Of a stretch of 31,830 nt of DNA, positions 4,726 through 31,830 are shown piece after piece. Source of the stretch: a virus. The first letter of the stretch is position 1; each line of letters opens with the position of its first letter. Made by a program: the position numbers and the translations under genes. Location of the stretch: the IMG/VR virus record IMGVR_UViG_3300037584_000565, positions 1 through 31,830 of that record. One strand, written 5' to 3'. The notes under the pieces are model-generated. The model ran no database searches and was not told the DNA's origin. It worked only from the letters and a program-made list of their open reading frames with translations.

Positions 4726-5037
4726 ATTAAAGACCCTAGATTAAAAAGATTTGGGTTAAAGGGATATAATAAACCCAAAAGAACACCTAGACATAAGACT
4801 AAAAGTCATGTTGTTTTGGCTAAATTTAAACAGTCAGGTAGGATGAAGACTAAATTAATTAGATTTGGTCAACAGAATGTAAGGACTAATCAGACAGTAG
4901 GTCAAAGAAGAGCATTTAAATCTCGCCATGCTAAGTCAATTGCAAAGGGTAAGAGCAGTGCGGCTTATTGGTCAAATCGTGTTAAATGGAGTCCTAGTAA
5001 GACTAAATCTAAATCTATGAAATGGAAAAAAGGGTAA
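4726..5037 (+). CDS. Basic marine-phage protein (DUF6321-like), probable ATT start
   Basis: The product is 103 aa and very rich in Lys and Arg. Its N-terminus reads KDPRLKRFGLKGYNKPKRTP, then KSHVVLAKFK, IRFGQQN and SFKxRHAKxIAxGKxSAAYWSNxVKW-like sequence, a pattern I recall from DUF6321 proteins of cyanophages and pelagiphages. The conserved beginning lies upstream of the first conventional start (TTG at 4816). The frame opens only after a stop at 4708-4710 and has no ATG, GTG or TTG before 4816. AGGAG at 4714-4718 sits seven bases before ATT at 4726, so initiation at AUU is likely. A sequencing error in an ATG is the alternative. The function is unknown; nucleic-acid binding is plausible from charge. 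Confidence 0.72.
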   Translation: MKDPRLKRFGLKGYNKPKRTPRHKTKSHVVLAKFKQSGRMKTKLIRFGQQNVRTNQTVGQRRAFKSRHAKSIAKGKSSAAYWSNRVKWSPSKTKSKSMKWKKG

Positions 5038-5040
5038 TCT

Positions 5041-5214
5041 ATGAAAATAAAAGGTGTTGATTTAAGTGGATTGACTAAAAGACAAGTTTCAGCTATGAGA
5101 AGACATTCTAAACATCATACGGCTAAGCATTTGAAATCAATGGTAAGAGCTATGAAAAAAGGAAAGACATTTACTCAATCTCATACAATAGCTCAAAAGA
5201 AAGTAGGAAGGTAG
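5041..5214 (+). CDS. Small basic protein, 57 aa
   Basis: This short gene runs from ATG at 5041 to TAG at 5212-5214. The product starts MKIKGVDLSGLTKRQVSAMR and continues with many His, Lys and Arg residues (RRHSKHHTAKHL, MKKGKTFTQSH). I recall near-identical small proteins beside DUF6321- and DUF5872-like genes in marine phages. It has no cysteine, so it is not a zinc finger. The stop overlaps the GTG of the next gene (TAGTG). It is the middle member of three adjacent strongly basic proteins. Confidence 0.7.
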   Translation: MKIKGVDLSGLTKRQVSAMRRHSKHHTAKHLKSMVRAMKKGKTFTQSHTIAQKKVGR

Positions 5215-5612
5215 TGGCTACTGCAGTTAAAACTAAACCTAAATTATGGAAAAGAATTGTCTCTTCTGTTAAGGCTGGTAATAAGGGAGGAAGAAAAGGA
5301 CAATGGTCTGCTCGCAAGAGTCAATTAGCAGTTCAGAGATATAAGAAGGCTGGTGGTGGGTATAGAGGTAAAAAGTCTAGTAAGAACTCTTTATCTAAAT
5401 GGTCAAAACAGAAATGGGGTTATATTACAAAAAGTGATGTTAAGAAACCAAGAGCTAAAAGAGGAAGGTATTTACCTGAATCAGTTAGAAAGAAATTGAC
5501 ACCTAGTCAAAAAGCTTATGAGAATAGAAAGAAAAGAAAAGCTACTGCTAAAGGTAAGCAGAGAGCTAAATATTCAAGGAAAACGGCTACAAAAGTCAGG
5601 AGGTCTAGATGA
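5214..5612 (+). CDS. Highly basic DUF5872-like protein
   Basis: The product is 132 aa, starting at GTG 5214 with AGGAAGG upstream and overlapping the previous stop. It contains GGRKGQWSARKSQLAVQRYK, then SLSKWSKQKWGY, the pattern of the DUF5872 family found in marine phages and some large eukaryotic viruses. The final third is nearly all Lys, Arg, Ser and Thr. The extreme positive charge suggests binding to DNA or to acidic surfaces; a packaged DNA-binding protein or a host-takeover factor are both possible. It overlaps the endolysin candidate by 4 bp. Confidence 0.74.
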   Translation: MATAVKTKPKLWKRIVSSVKAGNKGGRKGQWSARKSQLAVQRYKKAGGGYRGKKSSKNSLSKWSKQKWGYITKSDVKKPRAKRGRYLPESVRKKLTPSQKAYENRKKRKATAKGKQRAKYSRKTATKVRRSR

Positions 5613-23523: not shown

Positions 23524-23852
23524 TGCCTAAAAAACAAACAGAGAACAAACGACCTGATGGGAAGTTTGCTAAGGGTAATAAATTAGGAAATAGATGGAAG
23601 AAAGGACAATCAGGAAATCCTAATGGGAGAAGAAACGCCTATACTGATTTAATTAAAGACTTTAGTTTTAAGAAGAATGGTGATAAGGAAAGAAGAGAGG
23701 TCATAGTATCTAAATTGTTTCAGTTAGCTGAAAGAGGCGACCTTAGAGCTATGCAGTTTATTATTGAAAGACTAGAAGGTAAAGCATTAGAAAGACAAGA
23801 AAGAACAACCAAGTCAGAACCTATTCAAGTCATGGTGATAGAAGATGATTGA
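23523..23852 (+). CDS. Terminase small-subunit candidate (DUF5681-like)
   Basis: The 109-aa product carries KKGQSGNPNGR (26-36), the signature of DUF5681 proteins often found directly before large terminases. The start is basic (MPKKQTENKRPDGKFAKGNK), the middle helical (REVIVSKLFQLAERGDLRAM) and the end acidic. It overlaps the large terminase by 8 bp. Small terminase subunits recognise the packaging site and stimulate the motor. Family and position support the role; DNA binding has not been shown for this family to my knowledge. Confidence 0.68.
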   Translation: MPKKQTENKRPDGKFAKGNKLGNRWKKGQSGNPNGRRNAYTDLIKDFSFKKNGDKERREVIVSKLFQLAERGDLRAMQFIIERLEGKALERQERTTKSEPIQVMVIEDD

Positions 23853-25047
23853 GTGGACTGTTAATAAGACTCGTAGAAAAATCCTAAATAATAAATCTAG
23901 GTTTAAAGTAATTGTAGCTGGGCGTAGATGGGGTAAGACCATATTAAGTTTAATGTATTTACTAAAAGACCCTTTCAAAGCTGATGAAAGAAGATTCTAT
24001 GTTACTCCTACCTACAGACAAGGTCGCATGATAGTATTTCCTATACTCAGGAGAATGTTTGGGAACTTTACTGGTGCAAAGTTAAATGAAACTGAGATGT
24101 CTGTTATCTTTGAGAATGGTGCAGAGTTATCAGTTAAGGGTGCTGATAATGAGAACAATTTAAGAGGTGTATCACTAACAAAATGTGTAATGGATGAAAT
24201 GGCTTATATTAAACCTCATGTGTGGGAGGAAATCATTATGCCTATGTTAGCAACCACTAAAGGAGAAGTCTTATTTATCGGAACTCCTAGTGGGTATGAT
24301 ATTATGTATGACCTATACTCTAAAGGTCAATCAGAAGATGACTGGAGTAGTTGGCAGTTTAAAACTATAGATGGTGGGTTTGTACCTAAAGAAGAGATAG
24401 AAAGAGCAAAGAGAACAATGGATGAGTCTATATTTAGACAAGAGTTTGAAGGTTCTTTTGAATCAACTGGTAATAGAGCCGCATGGAACTTTGATAGGGA
24501 AACTCATGTAGTAAAAGCTGATGAACTATCTAATAAGTTATGGTGGGGAGTAGACCACAATGTAGATTTTAATACGGCTACATTAGCAACAGAGTATTCA
24601 GATGGAACAGTACATTATTTTGATGAGATAAGACTAAAGAATAGTAATACTGAAGAACTTGCAATAGAGATGAAGAAGATTGCACCTAACATTGAGTGTT
24701 ATCCTGACCCAGCTGGTAGGAATAGGTCTACAACATCTAGAAGAAGTGACCATGATATATTAGCTGAACATGGGTTTTTAATTAGAGCAAAGAAGTCTCA
24801 TCCTAGTCATATAGATAGATTAAATATTTTAAATAGAAAACTAAAAGACGCTGAAGGTAATATAAGTATGACTGTTGACCCCTCATGTGTTCATTTAATT
24901 AAAGACCTAGAACAATGTCAAAGAGATAGAAGAGGTGGACTAGATAAGTCAGATATGAACCTTACTCACGCTTTAGACGCCTGTTCTTATGGGTTGGCAT
25001 ATAAGTTTCCTATTAGAAAAGCTTTTGCAACAACTAGGAGTTGGTAA
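23845..25047 (+). CDS. terL: Terminase large subunit
   Basis: The 400-aa product is the packaging motor. The ATPase domain has Walker A AGRRWGKT (25-32), Walker B CVMDEMA (114-120, Asp117 and Glu118) and the coupling motif GTPSG (146-150). The nuclease domain has the RNase H-like acids in GVDHNVD (Asp237), YPDPAG (Asp288) and HALDACSYGL (Asp378). All key residues are present, so it should be active. The length is slightly short but complete. It marks the start of the head operon and fits the expected order small terminase, large terminase, portal. Confidence 0.95.
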   Translation: MIEWTVNKTRRKILNNKSRFKVIVAGRRWGKTILSLMYLLKDPFKADERRFYVTPTYRQGRMIVFPILRRMFGNFTGAKLNETEMSVIFENGAELSVKGADNENNLRGVSLTKCVMDEMAYIKPHVWEEIIMPMLATTKGEVLFIGTPSGYDIMYDLYSKGQSEDDWSSWQFKTIDGGFVPKEEIERAKRTMDESIFRQEFEGSFESTGNRAAWNFDRETHVVKADELSNKLWWGVDHNVDFNTATLATEYSDGTVHYFDEIRLKNSNTEELAIEMKKIAPNIECYPDPAGRNRSTTSRRSDHDILAEHGFLIRAKKSHPSHIDRLNILNRKLKDAEGNISMTVDPSCVHLIKDLEQCQRDRRGGLDKSDMNLTHALDACSYGLAYKFPIRKAFATTRSW

Positions 25048-25095: not shown

Positions 25096-26457
25096 ATGTA
25101 TAATTTTGGAAGAAGTGTAAATAGAGTGGTCATCCCTGAACTTTCTGAAATGGTAGTTATGCAGAGTGTTATTAATGCTCATGAAAACTATATTGATAAT
25201 GAGGATACTTATGTACTAGAGAGTTTAGATTTTTATTATAATCAGAACCTAGACACACACCTAGAACAATGGTTTGCATCTGAGAGTCTTAGTCAAGTTC
25301 CTCCTTATATAACATCTTGTGTTCCTCGTTTTGCTCGTGCTAGGATGATGTTATACAAAGAACCTCCTAAAAGATTTATAGGTGGTGAAAGAAATGAGAT
25401 GTATGATGATATATCTTTTAAATTAGATTCTAAGACTAAGGAATTTGCTGAGTTATCTTGGTTACTAGGACATTGTTGGATGAAGTCTAAGTACAATGAA
25501 AGAAAACAGAGATTAGAGTATGAAGTTCTCCCAATGGTACAGGAGTATTATCACACTTCAGATAGTGAGCCTTATGGGTATTCATATGAAATAGAGAGTC
25601 ATGACAATCATAAAAGGTTTGTTTTTTGGTCTGAGGAAAGAGATGGTGTCCAAGGTATGCACTTTGAGTTCAATCAAAAAGGTGAAAGATTTGCTATGTC
25701 TGAAGACATGATAAACCCTTATAAAATTAACCCTATCAGTAGAGTTGAGTTCTCTTCTAGTTCTTATGATGTCACTAGAGTTTCTTTACATTTAGCAATA
25801 GCCATGACTGAAGTAGCTCTAGGAATAAGGTCAAAGTTAGGTCAACCAGTATTCACAGGAATAGATGAAGGTCAATCAAGGTTAAAGGCTGGAATTGACA
25901 ATGCAATTATAATACCTGAAGGTGCATCCTTTGATTATAAGTCACCTAGTGGTAGTTTGACAGAAATGATAGAAGGTGTGAAGGCTATGGCTAATCAAGT
26001 AGCTGAGAACAATCAGTTAAGAATTAGATGGGGTGAGTCAGGTGGTAATGTACCTAGTGGAGAAGCATTAAGAATTATGGAGATTGAAAACCTTGAATCT
26101 AGAAAGTCAGATGAAGGAGTCTTTAGAGAGTGGGAACATTCAAGATATGAAATAGATAGAAGGATTTTAGAGGCACATAATGTAACTAATTTATCTGAAG
26201 ACTATGCAGTTGACTTTGGGGAGGTCAGTTTTCCAATGTCACCACAGGAGGAAAGAAACTGGTTAGATTGGAAGATTAAAAATGGGATAATGACTCAGAA
26301 AGACTTACTATTATACTTTAATCCTGACATGACTGATTCTGAGTTAGATGAGAAGTTAGGAGAGGTAAGAGAAGAACAAAGAGCAACAGTAGAAGCTACA
26401 CAACCTACACAACCAACCTTTGAGGGATTGAGAAAACTTGGCACAATTAATTCGTAA
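25096..26457 (+). CDS. Portal protein
   Basis: The 453-aa product sits directly after the large terminase. It has typical portal features: a helical N-terminal part with YYNQNLDTHLEQWFASESLS, a wing section (ITSCVPRFARARMMLYKEPP), a stem/clip region with helices (HLAIAMTEVALGIRSKLGQP) and SPSGSLTEMIEGVKAMANQV, then SGGNVPSGEALRIMEIENLE, close to SPP1-type portal sequence, and a charged C-terminal tail with TQPTQPT. It forms the dodecameric vertex through which DNA enters. AGAGGA at 25080 serves the ATG. A 48-bp gap separates it from the terminase. Confidence 0.85.
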   Translation: MYNFGRSVNRVVIPELSEMVVMQSVINAHENYIDNEDTYVLESLDFYYNQNLDTHLEQWFASESLSQVPPYITSCVPRFARARMMLYKEPPKRFIGGERNEMYDDISFKLDSKTKEFAELSWLLGHCWMKSKYNERKQRLEYEVLPMVQEYYHTSDSEPYGYSYEIESHDNHKRFVFWSEERDGVQGMHFEFNQKGERFAMSEDMINPYKINPISRVEFSSSSYDVTRVSLHLAIAMTEVALGIRSKLGQPVFTGIDEGQSRLKAGIDNAIIIPEGASFDYKSPSGSLTEMIEGVKAMANQVAENNQLRIRWGESGGNVPSGEALRIMEIENLESRKSDEGVFREWEHSRYEIDRRILEAHNVTNLSEDYAVDFGEVSFPMSPQEERNWLDWKIKNGIMTQKDLLLYFNPDMTDSELDEKLGEVREEQRATVEATQPTQPTFEGLRKLGTINS

Positions 26458-26668
26458 GTATATGGAAGACCTAGACAAGTTAGAATCTGTAATAGAAGAG
26501 AACGCTGATAATCTACTAGGTGCTATTGATTTAGATGAATTATTAAAAGACCCTGAAGGGTATTTACTATCATTAGGAGATGCTTTTCTTAAAGAACACA
26601 TAGACGAGATAGAGAAAGCTGGTCAATTAGGTACTAAGTTTGCACATAAGATTATAGAAGAGTCATGA
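26438..26668 (+). CDS. Hypothetical head-operon protein, 76 aa
   Basis: The start may be TTG 26438, overlapping the portal end, or ATG 26462. The product is acidic and helical (MEDLDKLESVIEENADNLLG, then LDELLKDPEGYLLSLGDAFL). It ends by ATGA coupling to the virion-morphogenesis gene. Proteins of this size after the portal can be head-assembly factors, but I do not recognise it. Confidence 0.62.
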   Translation: MAQLIRKYMEDLDKLESVIEENADNLLGAIDLDELLKDPEGYLLSLGDAFLKEHIDEIEKAGQLGTKFAHKIIEES

Positions 26669-27111
26669 AACCTAAAATAGAGATGAACTTTGACCTTAAA
26701 AAGTTAAAGTTAGACCTCACTAAAGAACTTAATGATGCTGGTAGGATAGTAAGAGAAGACCATTTTCAAAGACTAGAAAGAGGTATGGGTGTGAATGGTA
26801 GGATGCAGAAACTAAAAGATTCTACCATTAAAAGAAAAGGACATGACCAAATATTAGTAGATACTGGTAAGATGAGAAACCTTATTCTAAACAAAGCAAG
26901 TAAAGTAAAACAATTAGTTACATTACACCCAGGCAAGAAACAGAAAAGGAAAGGTGGTGTGACTAATGCAGATATAGGTTCATTTCATCAACAAGGTAAT
27001 CCCTCAACTAATTTACCTAAAAGAGAATGGTTTGGTATTACTAAAAAAGCTGAGAAAAGAGCCATTAAAATGATAGAACTAAAGATAGATAAGATATTAA
27101 GAAATGTCTGA
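26665..27111 (+). CDS. Phage virion morphogenesis protein (Mu gpG/HK97 gp10-like)
   Basis: The 148-aa product has a basic helical body (FDLKKLKLDLTKELNDAGRI; ERGMGVNGRMQKLKDSTIKR) and the distinctive C-terminal motif IGSFHQQGNPSTNLPKREWF followed by GITKKAEK, matching the HxxGxxxxxPxRxxxG pattern of virion-morphogenesis/tail-completion proteins. Such proteins join or complete the neck or tail. It is set unusually early, between portal and MuF genes, far from the other tail-completion genes at 7360-8962, but this occurs in other phages. It overlaps both neighbours. Confidence 0.74.
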   Translation: MKPKIEMNFDLKKLKLDLTKELNDAGRIVREDHFQRLERGMGVNGRMQKLKDSTIKRKGHDQILVDTGKMRNLILNKASKVKQLVTLHPGKKQKRKGGVTNADIGSFHQQGNPSTNLPKREWFGITKKAEKRAIKMIELKIDKILRNV

Positions 27112-28393
27112 ACCTCAAGACCTACTTATAACTATGTCTTCCTTACTTAGTAATTCTGTTGCTAAGTCTACAATTACCCTAGAAGAGTCTATATCCCAAA
27201 TGAAGTTAAGTGGGATGGATGTCAACCAAATTAAATCAGTCTTGATGAATGACCTTAATAATGGCGGTAGGATATTTGGTTCATATAGAAACGCTATTAA
27301 AAGTACAACTAAAAATGGTGTAGGGTATAGTTCTAATATTGCAAGTCAGAAGGTTTATCAAGATTCATCAGTAGAAGAGTTCCAATGGGTTGGTATATCA
27401 GATAAAAGAGTTTGTGAAGATTGTGAAGACAGGCATGGTCAAACTGGTACTATGGAATATTTTAGAACTGTTGGACTTCCTCGTTCAGGGTTTTCTATAT
27501 GTCAAACTAATTGCAGATGCCAGTTAGTACCTATGAACTATAAGGGTGAGAACATTAAAGAACCTATAATCACTAAAAAGGTTTTGCCTATTACTGCTTT
27601 TAAAATGGCTGGTAAACACAAGACATCTAAAGACTCTATAGAATGGTTAAAGTCAAATATTGCAGATGAGGTTAATATATCATCAACAATAGATATTAAA
27701 ATAATGAATGAAATTACTAAGTCATTATCAAGAAATTTTGAAAAATACAAATTAAGTAAATTAGAAAAAATTTACTTTAATAGAGGAAGTGCTATGGCTA
27801 GTGCTAGTGGGGGTACTCTAAGTATTAATAAAAAGTATTTTAATAAAAAGGGTATGCAACAAGCTTACAGAGATGATGTCATTGAATTTACATCTAAATA
27901 TAAAAAATGGATTAAAGAGCTTGAAGATGATTTAAAACCTTTACTTTCTAAACCTTTTAAGGAATTATCTTATGTTGAAAAAAGAATGGTACAATGGAAT
28001 ACAAGTAGAATTATTGATTTAAAAAAGACTTTAAAGTCAAAGCAAAAGTATAAATATTGGAATTATTACAATAAGAAAAAATTATATGGTAGCGTTATAG
28101 ACCATGAAATTGGACATATGATTCATGACCAATATACTGGAAAATTAAATAGGTCTAGATACAGAAGAAAAAGTGTTTCTACAGAAGTTGCAGACAAATG
28201 GAACAAAGAATGGATAAGTATTTATAGAAAGTCTAAAAAACAGGGATTGATTTATAAAATTTCTGAATATGCATCATCTGACCATTATGAATTATTTGCT
28301 GAGTCTTTTGCCATGTATGTAAATGGTCAAAAATTACCTGAAATAATTCAAGATTATTTAGATAGATATTTAACGTCAAAGGAGCTTAACTAA
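27104..28393 (+). CDS. MuF-type minor head protein fused to a zinc-metalloprotease-like domain
   Basis: The N-terminal part (about 1-165) is a minor head/MuF module: helical start, GRIFGSYRNAIKSTTKNGVG, then the usual Cys/His cluster CEDCEDRHG (104-112) and CQTNCRC (133-139). The remaining 260 residues carry DHEIGHMIHDQ, a perfect HExxH zinc-protease motif (His334, Glu335, His338), with Glu400 in ELFAESFAMY as the likely third ligand. Such a C-terminus is not part of ordinary MuF proteins. MuF proteins with toxin-like C-terminal domains, including peptidase-like ones, are known as phage polymorphic toxins. This protein could be carried in the capsid and injected, or act in head maturation. 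The C-terminal part uses more A/T-rich codons by eye, suggesting later acquisition. Confidence 0.85.
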   Translation: MSEPQDLLITMSSLLSNSVAKSTITLEESISQMKLSGMDVNQIKSVLMNDLNNGGRIFGSYRNAIKSTTKNGVGYSSNIASQKVYQDSSVEEFQWVGISDKRVCEDCEDRHGQTGTMEYFRTVGLPRSGFSICQTNCRCQLVPMNYKGENIKEPIITKKVLPITAFKMAGKHKTSKDSIEWLKSNIADEVNISSTIDIKIMNEITKSLSRNFEKYKLSKLEKIYFNRGSAMASASGGTLSINKKYFNKKGMQQAYRDDVIEFTSKYKKWIKELEDDLKPLLSKPFKELSYVEKRMVQWNTSRIIDLKKTLKSKQKYKYWNYYNKKKLYGSVIDHEIGHMIHDQYTGKLNRSRYRRKSVSTEVADKWNKEWISIYRKSKKQGLIYKISEYASSDHYELFAESFAMYVNGQKLPEIIQDYLDRYLTSKELN

Positions 28394-28584
28394 TGCCTAG
28401 GTCTACTCAATGTAATATATGTGTTCAGTATATAGAAGAATTTAAGTGTAAAGCTTTTCCTAAAGGTATTCCTAGAGAAATTTTTACTGGATTTCATGAC
28501 CATAAAAAGGAATTTAAAGGAGACAATGGAATAAGGTTTCAAACCATAGAAGACTTTATGAAAGAGAATAGACCTACAAAGTAA
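28393..28584 (+). CDS. Small Cys/His protein following the MuF gene
   Basis: The 63-aa product matches a small widespread family with the pattern CxxC, about 7 residues, CKAFPKGIPREI, then GFHDHKKEFKGDNGIRF. I recall such proteins near phage head genes and alone in bacterial genomes, with no established function. The Cys and His residues suggest a small metal-binding fold. It starts right after the stop of the MuF-zincin gene, so a partner, chaperone or antidote role for that protein is worth considering, but unproven. Confidence 0.72.
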   Translation: MPRSTQCNICVQYIEEFKCKAFPKGIPREIFTGFHDHKKEFKGDNGIRFQTIEDFMKENRPTK

Positions 28585-28653: not shown

Positions 28654-29190
28654 ATGTCTGAAACTACAACAGAAGCAGTACAAGATAATGTACAAGAGGT
28701 GACTCCTAACAGTCAGAATGAAACTAATGAAACGCCTGATGTCACTAGTTACATAGCAGAAAGCAAGAAGTATAGAAGTAGGGCACAACTAGCAGAGTCT
28801 GAATTATCTGATTTAAAATCTAAACTTGAAAAACAAGAAGAGGAAAGATTAGCTAAAAACAATAAGTGGGAAGAATTGGCAACTAAAAGAGAATCAGAAT
28901 TAAACAGTATTAAGGATGATTACCAAAGGTTAAAAGAAGCCGAAGAAGCCTATAAAGAAGACTTGCTAAATATTCTAAGTGAAGAAGAAAGAGAAACATT
29001 TAAGGGTTTAAGTGTTGCTCAGCTTAGAGTTATAACTGATAAAATTAATAATCAATCTCAAGAGGTAGCTCCTACAAGCAATACTCCAGCTAAAAGTGTA
29101 AATCCAAGTCCTAAAGATTGGACTAGCATGAGTGCAGAAGAAAGAAGAGCAAATTGGGGTAGTATCTTACAGAGTTATGTCAAGAGATAA
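28654..29190 (+). CDS. Capsid scaffolding protein
   Basis: The 178-aa product is acidic and helical with a long coiled coil (about 45-110: ESELSDLKSKLEKQEEERLA and beyond), a disordered Thr/Asn-rich start and the typical terminal helix SMSAEERRANWGSILQSYVK after a Pro/Ser linker. It lies immediately before the capsid gene, the standard place for a scaffold. AGAGGAAG precedes the ATG. I see no protease domain, so if the scaffold is removed by cleavage the enzyme is elsewhere; the zincin-like gene upstream is one candidate. Confidence 0.84.
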   Translation: MSETTTEAVQDNVQEVTPNSQNETNETPDVTSYIAESKKYRSRAQLAESELSDLKSKLEKQEEERLAKNNKWEELATKRESELNSIKDDYQRLKEAEEAYKEDLLNILSEEERETFKGLSVAQLRVITDKINNQSQEVAPTSNTPAKSVNPSPKDWTSMSAEERRANWGSILQSYVKR

Positions 29191-29208: not shown

Positions 29209-30105
29209 ATGGCAAAACATTATCAAGGTAGTGCAACCACAAATTCAACTGACCAACATTTCATACCTGAGATTTGGTCAGAGGGGATTTATAAGTTTTT
29301 CGAGAGAAAGACAATATTCAGAGGATTAATTGAAGACTATTCAGCTTTAGTAGGTGCTAAAGGGTTTGGAGATGTTGTTCATGTTCCTGAAATATCATTA
29401 GCAAGTGCGGCTGATAAGTCTGCTGGTTCTGATGTGTCTTATGATGCAACTGCAACTACAGAAACTCAGTTGTCGCTTAACAAACATAAGTACATTGGTA
29501 AGCTTTTTGAAGATTTGACAATCATACAAAGTGAAGCAGATTTAGTAGAAAAGTACACTAGAATGATGGGTGAGGCTCTTGCTCGTCAATTAGATGCTGA
29601 CATTTGGTCTGAATTAGATGGTTTAAACCAGTCTCAGGCTCTATCTGCTGATGATACTTTAACCGCCGCAGTCTTTGAAAGTGTATTAGCTACACTAGGT
29701 GAAAATGATGTTCCTTACATGGATGGTGAGTGTGCTATGGTTGTAAATCCAACTCTATTTGCAGACATCCTTAATCCTAGTGCTGGTATCGCTCAGTATT
29801 TCATCAGAAATGATGCAGTCGGAGAAGGTAACAGAGGACTAAGGTCAGGAATGGTCGGCTCATTATATGGCATTGATGTCTATATGAGTAATACTGTTTC
29901 AACTGCTGGAACAAGTTCAACAATAGCTGGTGCAGTTTTCCATAAAAGTGCCGCGGTTTGTGCAGTTCAGCAAGAAGTCAGAACTCAGTCAGAGTATTCT
30001 ATTGATGCTCTTGGAACAAAAATTGTCTCTGATTTAGTCTATGGCGTAAAGCTTTTAGATGATAGTGACAATATCAAAGGTGTTAAGTTTACTAACGTAG
30101 ACTAG
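29209..30105 (+). CDS. Major capsid protein, HK97 fold
   Basis: The 298-aa product has the features of a small HK97-type capsid protein. It has an N-arm (HFIPEIWSEGIYKFFERKTI), E-loop (GFGDVVHVPEISLASAADKS), spine helix (SEADLVEKYTRMMGEALARQ) and P-domain (NDVPYMDGECAMVVNPTLFA, then LYGIDVYMSNTVS). There is no N-terminal delta domain; a separate scaffold gene precedes it. AAGAGG is eight bases before the ATG. A strong hairpin follows its stop, which should favour high and separate expression. Confidence 0.9.
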   Translation: MAKHYQGSATTNSTDQHFIPEIWSEGIYKFFERKTIFRGLIEDYSALVGAKGFGDVVHVPEISLASAADKSAGSDVSYDATATTETQLSLNKHKYIGKLFEDLTIIQSEADLVEKYTRMMGEALARQLDADIWSELDGLNQSQALSADDTLTAAVFESVLATLGENDVPYMDGECAMVVNPTLFADILNPSAGIAQYFIRNDAVGEGNRGLRSGMVGSLYGIDVYMSNTVSTAGTSSTIAGAVFHKSAAVCAVQQEVRTQSEYSIDALGTKIVSDLVYGVKLLDDSDNIKGVKFTNVD

Positions 30106-30791: not shown

Positions 30792-31830
30792 ATGCAGAGT
30801 TCTATGATAAAATCTATTACTGAGGACTTTGGTAATGGAGGAACAATAGATGGTGATATTACAATCACAGGAGACCTGCAAGTCAATGGAGGTGGTTCAC
30901 TATCATTTGATGAGATAATACAAGGTACACAAGTAATTGATGTAACCAATACAGAGGCTTTATTAGTTCGTAAGAATGGTGATGGTGGAGATGTCTTTGT
31001 TGTTGATACTACTAATTCACGAGTTGGTATAAATAAAACCCCAACTAACTCATTACATTTAGATGTTGGCAACGGAACTGCTGAATTTGGCAAAGGTATT
31101 ACAATTGAAACTGGTGATGATAGTTATTCTGCTAATCGAGGCGGTATGCTTGAATTTCACAATGAAGATGTAATAATTGCTGGTATAAGAGCAGAAAGAC
31201 CAACTCTAGGTGGGCATAGAGGTGAGCTACAATTTTTTACTCACAGTTCAGCTTCAGGAAATACTTACGGAACTACTTTTTTAGAAAGAATGAGAATAGA
31301 TTCTTCTGGTCGTGTAGGCATAGGAACTGTTTCTCCAACATCAGCCTTAGTCGTGCAAACTACAAATGCTTTAGATGTTACTACTGCTCCTACTGGTTCA
31401 GTTAGTATAGGTTCTCCAAGTTCAACTCTTCAAGGTGCAATTTCAGGTAGGCAAACATCAAACACTACTGCTTTACATCTTATGGGGAGTGGGGCAGATG
31501 GAAACACTAGTGGTGATATGATTTTTAATGTAAGAGAAAATAATAACTCTACATTTGCAACTCTTACAAATAGTGCTTTTAAATTTCAACACTTTAGTAC
31601 TGATTTAATTAATATCTTAAGAAATGGTAACACTACATTTTCTGGCAATATTACTGCATCTAATCTTCCTGAATCAAAATCTACTGGAGAGAGTTTTGCC
31701 TTCGGAACAAACGCTGGTAGTGCTTTTCTTGGTGATAGTGTAAATAAAATTAATGTTGCAATTGGTTCTAACGCTGGAACTGCTATGGCTGATTATGGTG
31801 GGAATGTATTCATCGGTAAGGACTCAGCTA
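30792..31830 (+). CDS. Tail fibre, N-terminal part (3' partial, continues at 417)
   Basis: ATG 30792 follows the previous stop directly, and the frame stays open to the end of the window. It encodes 346 residues: MQSSMIKSITEDFGNGGTID, shaft-like repeats (GDITITGDLQVNGGG), LLVRKNGDGGDVFVVDTTNS, RVGINKTPTNSLHLDVGNG, ERMRIDSSGRVGIGTVSP and TTFSGNITASNLPESKSTGE, then FGTNAGSAF at the 127-bp repeat. These SGRVGIGTxxP-type repeats are common in fibre shafts that end in S74 chaperones. The last 127 bases equal 290-416 in the same frame, so the gene should continue from 417 to 2875, giving about 1,165 aa. No ribosome binding site is obvious, so translation may be coupled to the upstream gene. Confidence 0.88.
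   Translation, partial: MQSSMIKSITEDFGNGGTIDGDITITGDLQVNGGGSLSFDEIIQGTQVIDVTNTEALLVRKNGDGGDVFVVDTTNSRVGINKTPTNSLHLDVGNGTAEFGKGITIETGDDSYSANRGGMLEFHNEDVIIAGIRAERPTLGGHRGELQFFTHSSASGNTYGTTFLERMRIDSSGRVGIGTVSPTSALVVQTTNALDVTTAPTGSVSIGSPSSTLQGAISGRQTSNTTALHLMGSGADGNTSGDMIFNVRENNNSTFATLTNSAFKFQHFSTDLINILRNGNTTFSGNITASNLPESKSTGESFAFGTNAGSAFLGDSVNKINVAIGSNAGTAMADYGGNVFIGKDSA
31704..31830 (+). repeat. 127-bp exact direct repeat, right copy
   Basis: This copy is identical to 290-416 and ends exactly at the last base of the window. Upstream of it, identity fades through synonymous changes (GAG/GAA, GCC/GCT, TTC/TTT). The pattern fits a circular molecule closed within the fibre gene, or a second repeat copy inside the same fibre. 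Confidence 0.95.

Follow-up and report, generated by a model that had tools for sequence, protein, structure and literature searches.

Record IMGVR_UViG_3300037584_000565 of the IMG/VR virus collection (positions 1 to 31,830; hereafter the window, meaning the whole stretch of 31,830 nucleotides that was analysed) encodes, among its head genes, a 429-residue protein in which a MuF minor head module is fused to a C-terminal domain, or tip, with the fold of zinc-dependent proteases (zincins). The open reading frame (ORF) of this fusion is intact, and the opposite strand of the interval 27104-28393 is full of stops. It is followed by a small ORF for a CxxC protein, the start codon of which overlaps the stop codon of the fusion. 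The features of the locus, all on the plus strand, are as follows.

27104-28393, plus strand: MuF-zincin fusion protein, 429 residues, with ATG at 27104 and stop codon at 28391-28393
27104-27568, plus strand: MuF minor head module, residues 1-155
27569-28579, plus strand: exchanged cassette comprising the tip and the partner ORF
27599-28390, plus strand: zincin tip, residues 166-429, of the lethal-factor/Pro-Pro endopeptidase (M34-like) fold
28103-28117, plus strand: active-site motif H334-E335-I-G-H338
28268-28270, plus strand: conserved Y389
28289-28291, plus strand: E396, likely the third zinc ligand
28301-28303, plus strand: E400, a conserved second Glu
28393-28584, plus strand: small CxxC partner ORF, 63 residues

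Comparison with related virus contigs showed that the tip and the small downstream ORF form a cassette that is exchanged between phages, the window carrying one of its alleles. Contigs with 97-99% identical capsid proteins share one common MuF module, near-identical across all close relatives, and carry zincin tips of three types: type A in the window, L001 and L002, type B in L003-L006 and L008 (truncated in L003 and L006), and type C in L007. In L069, with a capsid protein 83% identical, the MuF protein bears an ADP-ribosyltransferase (ART) tip at the same genomic place (L069:4223-5293; PF03496, E 2.2e-11), and 23 further MuF genes in relatives are tipless. Thus, the C-terminal enzyme varies (zincin A, B or C, ART, or none) on a constant N-terminus. 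At the DNA level, the flanks of the cassette are 90-95% identical to those in L004, L005 and L007, against 0-62% within it. Identity to L004 and L007 is mostly at least 90% until about position 27560, then drops to the low values of the cassette and is high again at 28564-28579, a downstream border that coincides with the end of the small ORF. Furthermore, the tips are under purifying selection, with dN/dS of 0.13 between the window and L002 and of 0.02 between two type B copies, which points to an exchange of working alleles rather than to decay.

Joint exchange of a tip and its small ORF is also seen in two cultured phages, lotta8-1 and pippi8-1, both isolated on Flavobacterium strain LMO8. 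In the compared head-module regions (L090:3425-5153 in lotta8-1 and L282:1498-3320 in pippi8-1), the DNA on either side of one replaced block agrees at 99.1-99.3% identity. The block begins where the shared MuF part stops and reaches into the final bases of the small ORF. The two tips are different HExxH zincin-like proteins, that of pippi8-1 being recognised weakly (E 1.4e-6 in a single-sequence search), and the two small ORFs are mutually unrelated.

The initial annotation had described a MuF head protein with a cysteine cluster and a zinc-protease-like C-terminus containing His334-Glu335-x-x-His338, and each of these elements withstood closer analysis. In the N-terminal part, Phage_Mu_F (PF04233) matches residues 76-141 with E 1.5e-6 and 29.3 bits, just under the cut-off of 29.6, and TIGR01641 (SPP1 gp7) matches residues 37-144 with E 1.7e-7, under its curated cut-off; despite these single-sequence scores, we assign the module to the MuF (PF04233/SPP1 gp7) group. 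Its Cys/His cluster consists of C104, C107, H111, C133, C137 and C139. For the tip, single-sequence Pfam signals are weak (ATLF, E 0.0012; Peptidase_Mx, E 0.0027; both under the cut-offs), and scans that used tip A or tip C by itself led to no sequences beyond the clade of the window. The neighbouring small gene gave access to 48 zincin tips, none of them from the window clade, from which a hidden Markov model (HMM) was built. With this model, the window scored E 7e-25, lotta8-1 1e-16 and tip C 9e-15, and tip B was matched in two separate segments at about 1e-7. A chance occurrence of HExxH in the window was therefore rejected.

When a profile of the zincin alignment was compared with the PDB, the best match was the catalytic domain of lethal factor (E 2.5e-9), with Pro-Pro endopeptidases at about 6e-6; a direct phmmer search of the PDB with the window protein gave no match. 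Structure prediction of the C-terminal part, which the initial annotation had proposed as a check, agrees with a zincin. The AlphaFold2 (AF2) model, covering residues 166-429 and based on a deep alignment that included zincins found through the partner gene, reached a pLDDT of 89.9 and a pTM of 0.84. VIA aligned this model with residues 562-774 of lethal factor at Z 12.9 (158 residues, root-mean-square deviation 3.1), with PPEP-1 at Z 10.5 and with PPEP-3 at Z 10.2, and unrelated entries scored about 7.8. Foldseek found no match in the PDB at E < 0.001 (best E 0.045), and because its E-values are weak, the fold assignment rests on the profile search and VIA. The model also includes a long helical insert, at model residues 83-146.

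H334, E335 and H338 are invariant in an alignment of 46 sequences. E396 is invariant as well, and Y389, seven residues before it, and E400, four residues after it, are each at least 90% conserved. This Tyr-7-Glu-4-Glu spacing matches the arrangement of the lethal-factor site, in which the first Glu is the zinc ligand. By that spacing, the third ligand is likely E396 and not E400, the residue suggested in the initial annotation, and E400 would belong to the second shell. Thus, the tip shares the fold and the active-site set of ATLF/M34-type zincins, namely a conserved HExxH and a downstream Glu, and stays outside the Pfam ATLF family as such, for which the curated cut-off is not reached (19 versus 27.4 bits).

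The small ORF, like the exchange of the whole block of tip and partner, goes beyond what had been noted before. Homologues of the encoded protein sit behind tips A and B, the ART tip and the tip of lotta8-1. Within the window clade, the DNA downstream could be read for 8 tipped MuF genes, and 7 of these are followed by a small ORF, versus 0 of the 23 tipless ones. The protein has no named family in Pfam, NCBIfam or the named PHROGs (its match, phrog_33375, is of unknown function), and we found no paper that names the family, a weak negative since a sequence family is not searchable by name. Homologues were gathered with a degenerate DNA pattern, which matches at least 119 virus stretches. A zincin is encoded upstream of 59 of the 107 small genes that have an upstream ORF within 60 nucleotides, a count for which the zincin HMM was built partly from those same upstream proteins. 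Among 73 non-redundant proteins encoded just upstream of the CxxC family on virus contigs, PF04233 is present in 47 and an ADP-ribosyltransferase domain in 7. The small gene is not confined to MuF tips, since the family is more scattered in cellular genomes.

The partner tree, in which most forks are unresolved, clusters by tip class (16 changes versus a shuffled mean of 27.8, with 0 of 500 shuffles as low). The nearest relatives of the window partner are those of L100 and L183, and the zincins closest to that of the window (39% and 36%) are encoded on the same two contigs. Small CxxC proteins whose N-termini are longer form a second large group (L108, L104, L122, L135, L256 and others), found behind proteins that end in a helical WHEVW-like tail. 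Several of these proteins have a MuF domain, and the tail contains no recognised enzyme; such tails may represent an undescribed tip or a partner-binding region.

The fusion gene stands in an ordinary head module, in the order terminase, putative portal, neck protein, MuF, putative scaffold and capsid protein.

23845-25047, plus strand: terminase large subunit (phrog_2, E 3.7e-36)
25096-26457, plus strand: putative portal protein, assigned by position and size, without a confident profile match
26665-27111, plus strand: tail completion or Neck1 protein (phrog_222, E 8.4e-13), overlapping the start codon of the fusion
28654-29190, plus strand: putative scaffold, 178 residues, assigned by position and a weak phrog_1879 match only
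29209-30105, plus strand: major capsid protein (phrog_267, E 7.5e-42)

No protease domain was found in the putative scaffold, and apart from the zincin none was recognised among the head genes of the window. One alternative, already raised in the initial annotation, is thus that the zincin replaces the missing prohead protease and trims the scaffold or the capsid protein during assembly. Some databases do label MuF proteins as head or capsid maturation proteases (phrog_595; Indlulamithi). However, phrog_595 also matches the ART-tipped protein of L069, so that the label is no evidence for proteolysis. A head maturation protease would be expected to be conserved together with its capsid protein, whereas very different tips occur at 97-99% capsid identity, and relatives at 82-92% capsid identity are tipless or ART-tipped with no protease seen nearby. 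Moreover, lotta8-1 and pippi8-1 each combine a zincin tip with a separate annotated protease in the capsid module. We consider a role in head maturation very unlikely and rejected it, the tip being swapped or lost while the capsid protein remains nearly constant. As a separate observation, the phrog_595 label 'head maturation protease' looks misleading for MuF proteins in general.

At least the last 120 bases of the record repeat at about 297-416, within the same tail-fibre-like gene (regions 1-416 and 31670-31830). The contig therefore probably represents a circle of about 31.4 kb that contains a divergent bubble, and the genome is likely near complete. The tail-fibre-like gene (2-2875 and 30792-31829) has a repetitive body and a C-terminus that, judged by eye, resembles an S74-type intramolecular chaperone. 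Positions 4816-5612 hold a run of small, very basic ORFs of 57-132 residues, and a similar 61-residue peptide is encoded at L069:107-292.

No integrase, repressor or other lysogeny gene was recognised among the scanned ORFs of the 31.8 kb window, many of which have no profile match; the record may also be slightly incomplete. A pattern scan of cellular genome contigs for the capsid protein found no capsid relative, hence neither a prophage relative nor a host assignment. The window phage, which is marine, and its close relatives are thus apparently lytic. The initial annotation had called a zincin in a phage without visible lysogeny genes unusual; the lack of recognised lysogeny genes holds, but the case is not unique, since the authors who described the pippi/lotta group detected no genes for lysogeny and consider these phages lytic only (PMC7077304).

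These observations bear on the possibility that the fusion is a bactericidal polymorphic toxin used in competition and the small ORF a genuine immunity gene shielding lysogens, as in classical MuF toxins. The architecture and the small ORF match those described by Jamet et al. 2017 (PMC5576092), and Bxa-type MuF toxins have proven immunity proteins (PMC11699363). Yet a lytic phage gains nothing from lysogen immunity, and neither the window, nor the genome-contig scan, nor the reported lifestyle of the pippi/lotta group provides a lysogen to be protected. This explanation appears quite unlikely.

We favour instead a reading in which the fusion is a head-carried effector protease with an exchangeable tip cassette, and in which the small partner most likely restrains the tip, or keeps it ready to be loaded, in the producing cell; we put the probability of this reading at roughly 0.68. 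Through binding of its MuF module by the portal, the protein would enter the capsid in few copies, and the C-terminal zincin would be carried along and ejected with the DNA. Early in infection, the zincin would cleave a host protein, thereby removing a defence or helping takeover. In the virion-making cell, the small protein would prevent the tip from acting, or maintain it in a loadable state, so that proteolysis is confined to the cell infected next. Frequent tip exchange would fit selection by changing hosts or defences. For SPP1 gp7, the portal carries the protein into the procapsid in few copies; it supports the start of infection, and of the virions that lack gp7 only about 25% are infectious (PMC6316719). 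Portal-borne capsid delivery has also been proposed for MuF toxins (PMC5576092).

The initial annotation had already listed an injected effector as a candidate, and the fold, the conservation and, above all, the tip exchange support the effector interpretation, from which we infer packaging of the fusion, its ejection, cleavage of a host protein and the function of the partner. The ART tip also bears on a self-processing protease, which would cut its own fusion and free a part of it, either ahead of packaging or once ejected. For the zincin domains of phage polyvalent proteins, for example DdrB of phage P1, autoprocessing has been proposed (PMC5512222), but in the window no effector domain other than the C-terminal zincin is present, so that there is no other cargo to release, and the ART tip of L069 occupies the same site without any protease. 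We regard self-processing as unlikely.

Several points weigh against the effector-and-partner reading. Tip C of L007 lacks the small partner, which is thus not always required. On cellular genome contigs, the CxxC family is mostly not beside a zincin and is therefore not an exclusive antidote, and the occurrence of one family behind both zincin and ART tips is odd for a classical specific immunity protein. The presence of the family behind unrelated tip folds (zincin, ART and others) and away from any tip would suit a protein that assists folding or ejection of the tip, as a chaperone or adaptor, better than an inhibitor. This role, which is compatible with an effector tip, is a distinct possibility, although a tip-specific function is favoured by the pairing of the pippi8-1 tip with its own, unrelated small ORF and by the clustering of the poorly resolved partner tree by tip class.

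Under the effector reading, we tentatively propose that apparently lytic phages might keep a stock of interchangeable proteases for delivery by the head, and that each protease comes with a small protein matched to its tip, which would guard the producing cell like a safety catch. If so, this would be an effector-antidote system for safe manufacture and not for lysogen protection, with the CxxC family as a previously unnamed partner class. MuF effector delivery would be extended from prophages to apparently lytic marine phages, and the widespread CxxC family could serve as a marker for head-effector fusions, given the MuF domain in 47 of the 73 upstream proteins. The lotta8-1 and pippi8-1 phages form a natural pair that differs, in the compared head-module DNA, mainly by the tip cassette, which makes delivery of a host-modifying protease directly testable.

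Among known systems, the closest in architecture are the MuF polymorphic toxins, which share with the window the N-terminal MuF module, the exchangeable C-terminal enzyme and the small downstream ORF; metallopeptidase domains occur in 20% of 191 described toxins, and a small ORF usually follows (Jamet et al. 2017, PMC5576092). These toxins were reported only from temperate phages, with none in virulent phages (PMC5576092), whereas the window clade exchanges tips without recognised lysogeny genes and, unlike them, has one small-ORF family that recurs behind different enzymes. The catalytic domain of lethal factor and the Pro-Pro endopeptidases (M34/ATLF) have the same fold as the tip and the same HExxH with a downstream Tyr and two Glu, but the tip differs in its low identity to them (12-20%), its long helical insert and its proposed delivery by a phage head. 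Phages also encode zincin metallopeptidase (MPTase) domains in their polyvalent proteins, and these have been suggested either to target proteins of the host or to process the polypeptide itself (Iyer et al. 2017, PMC5512222). Unlike these large proteins with several effector domains, the window fusion consists of MuF and one zincin only. The gp028 proteins of lotta8-1 and pippi8-1 resemble the window in the MuF-zincin fusion and the small ORF overlapping the gene end, but belong to another head lineage, with MuF modules not closely related to that of the window and other tips, and are annotated merely as structural proteins. Thus, MuF-metallopeptidase toxins were already known and, as far as the literature shows, what is new is the recurrent CxxC partner, together with the exchange of tips among phages that are apparently lytic.
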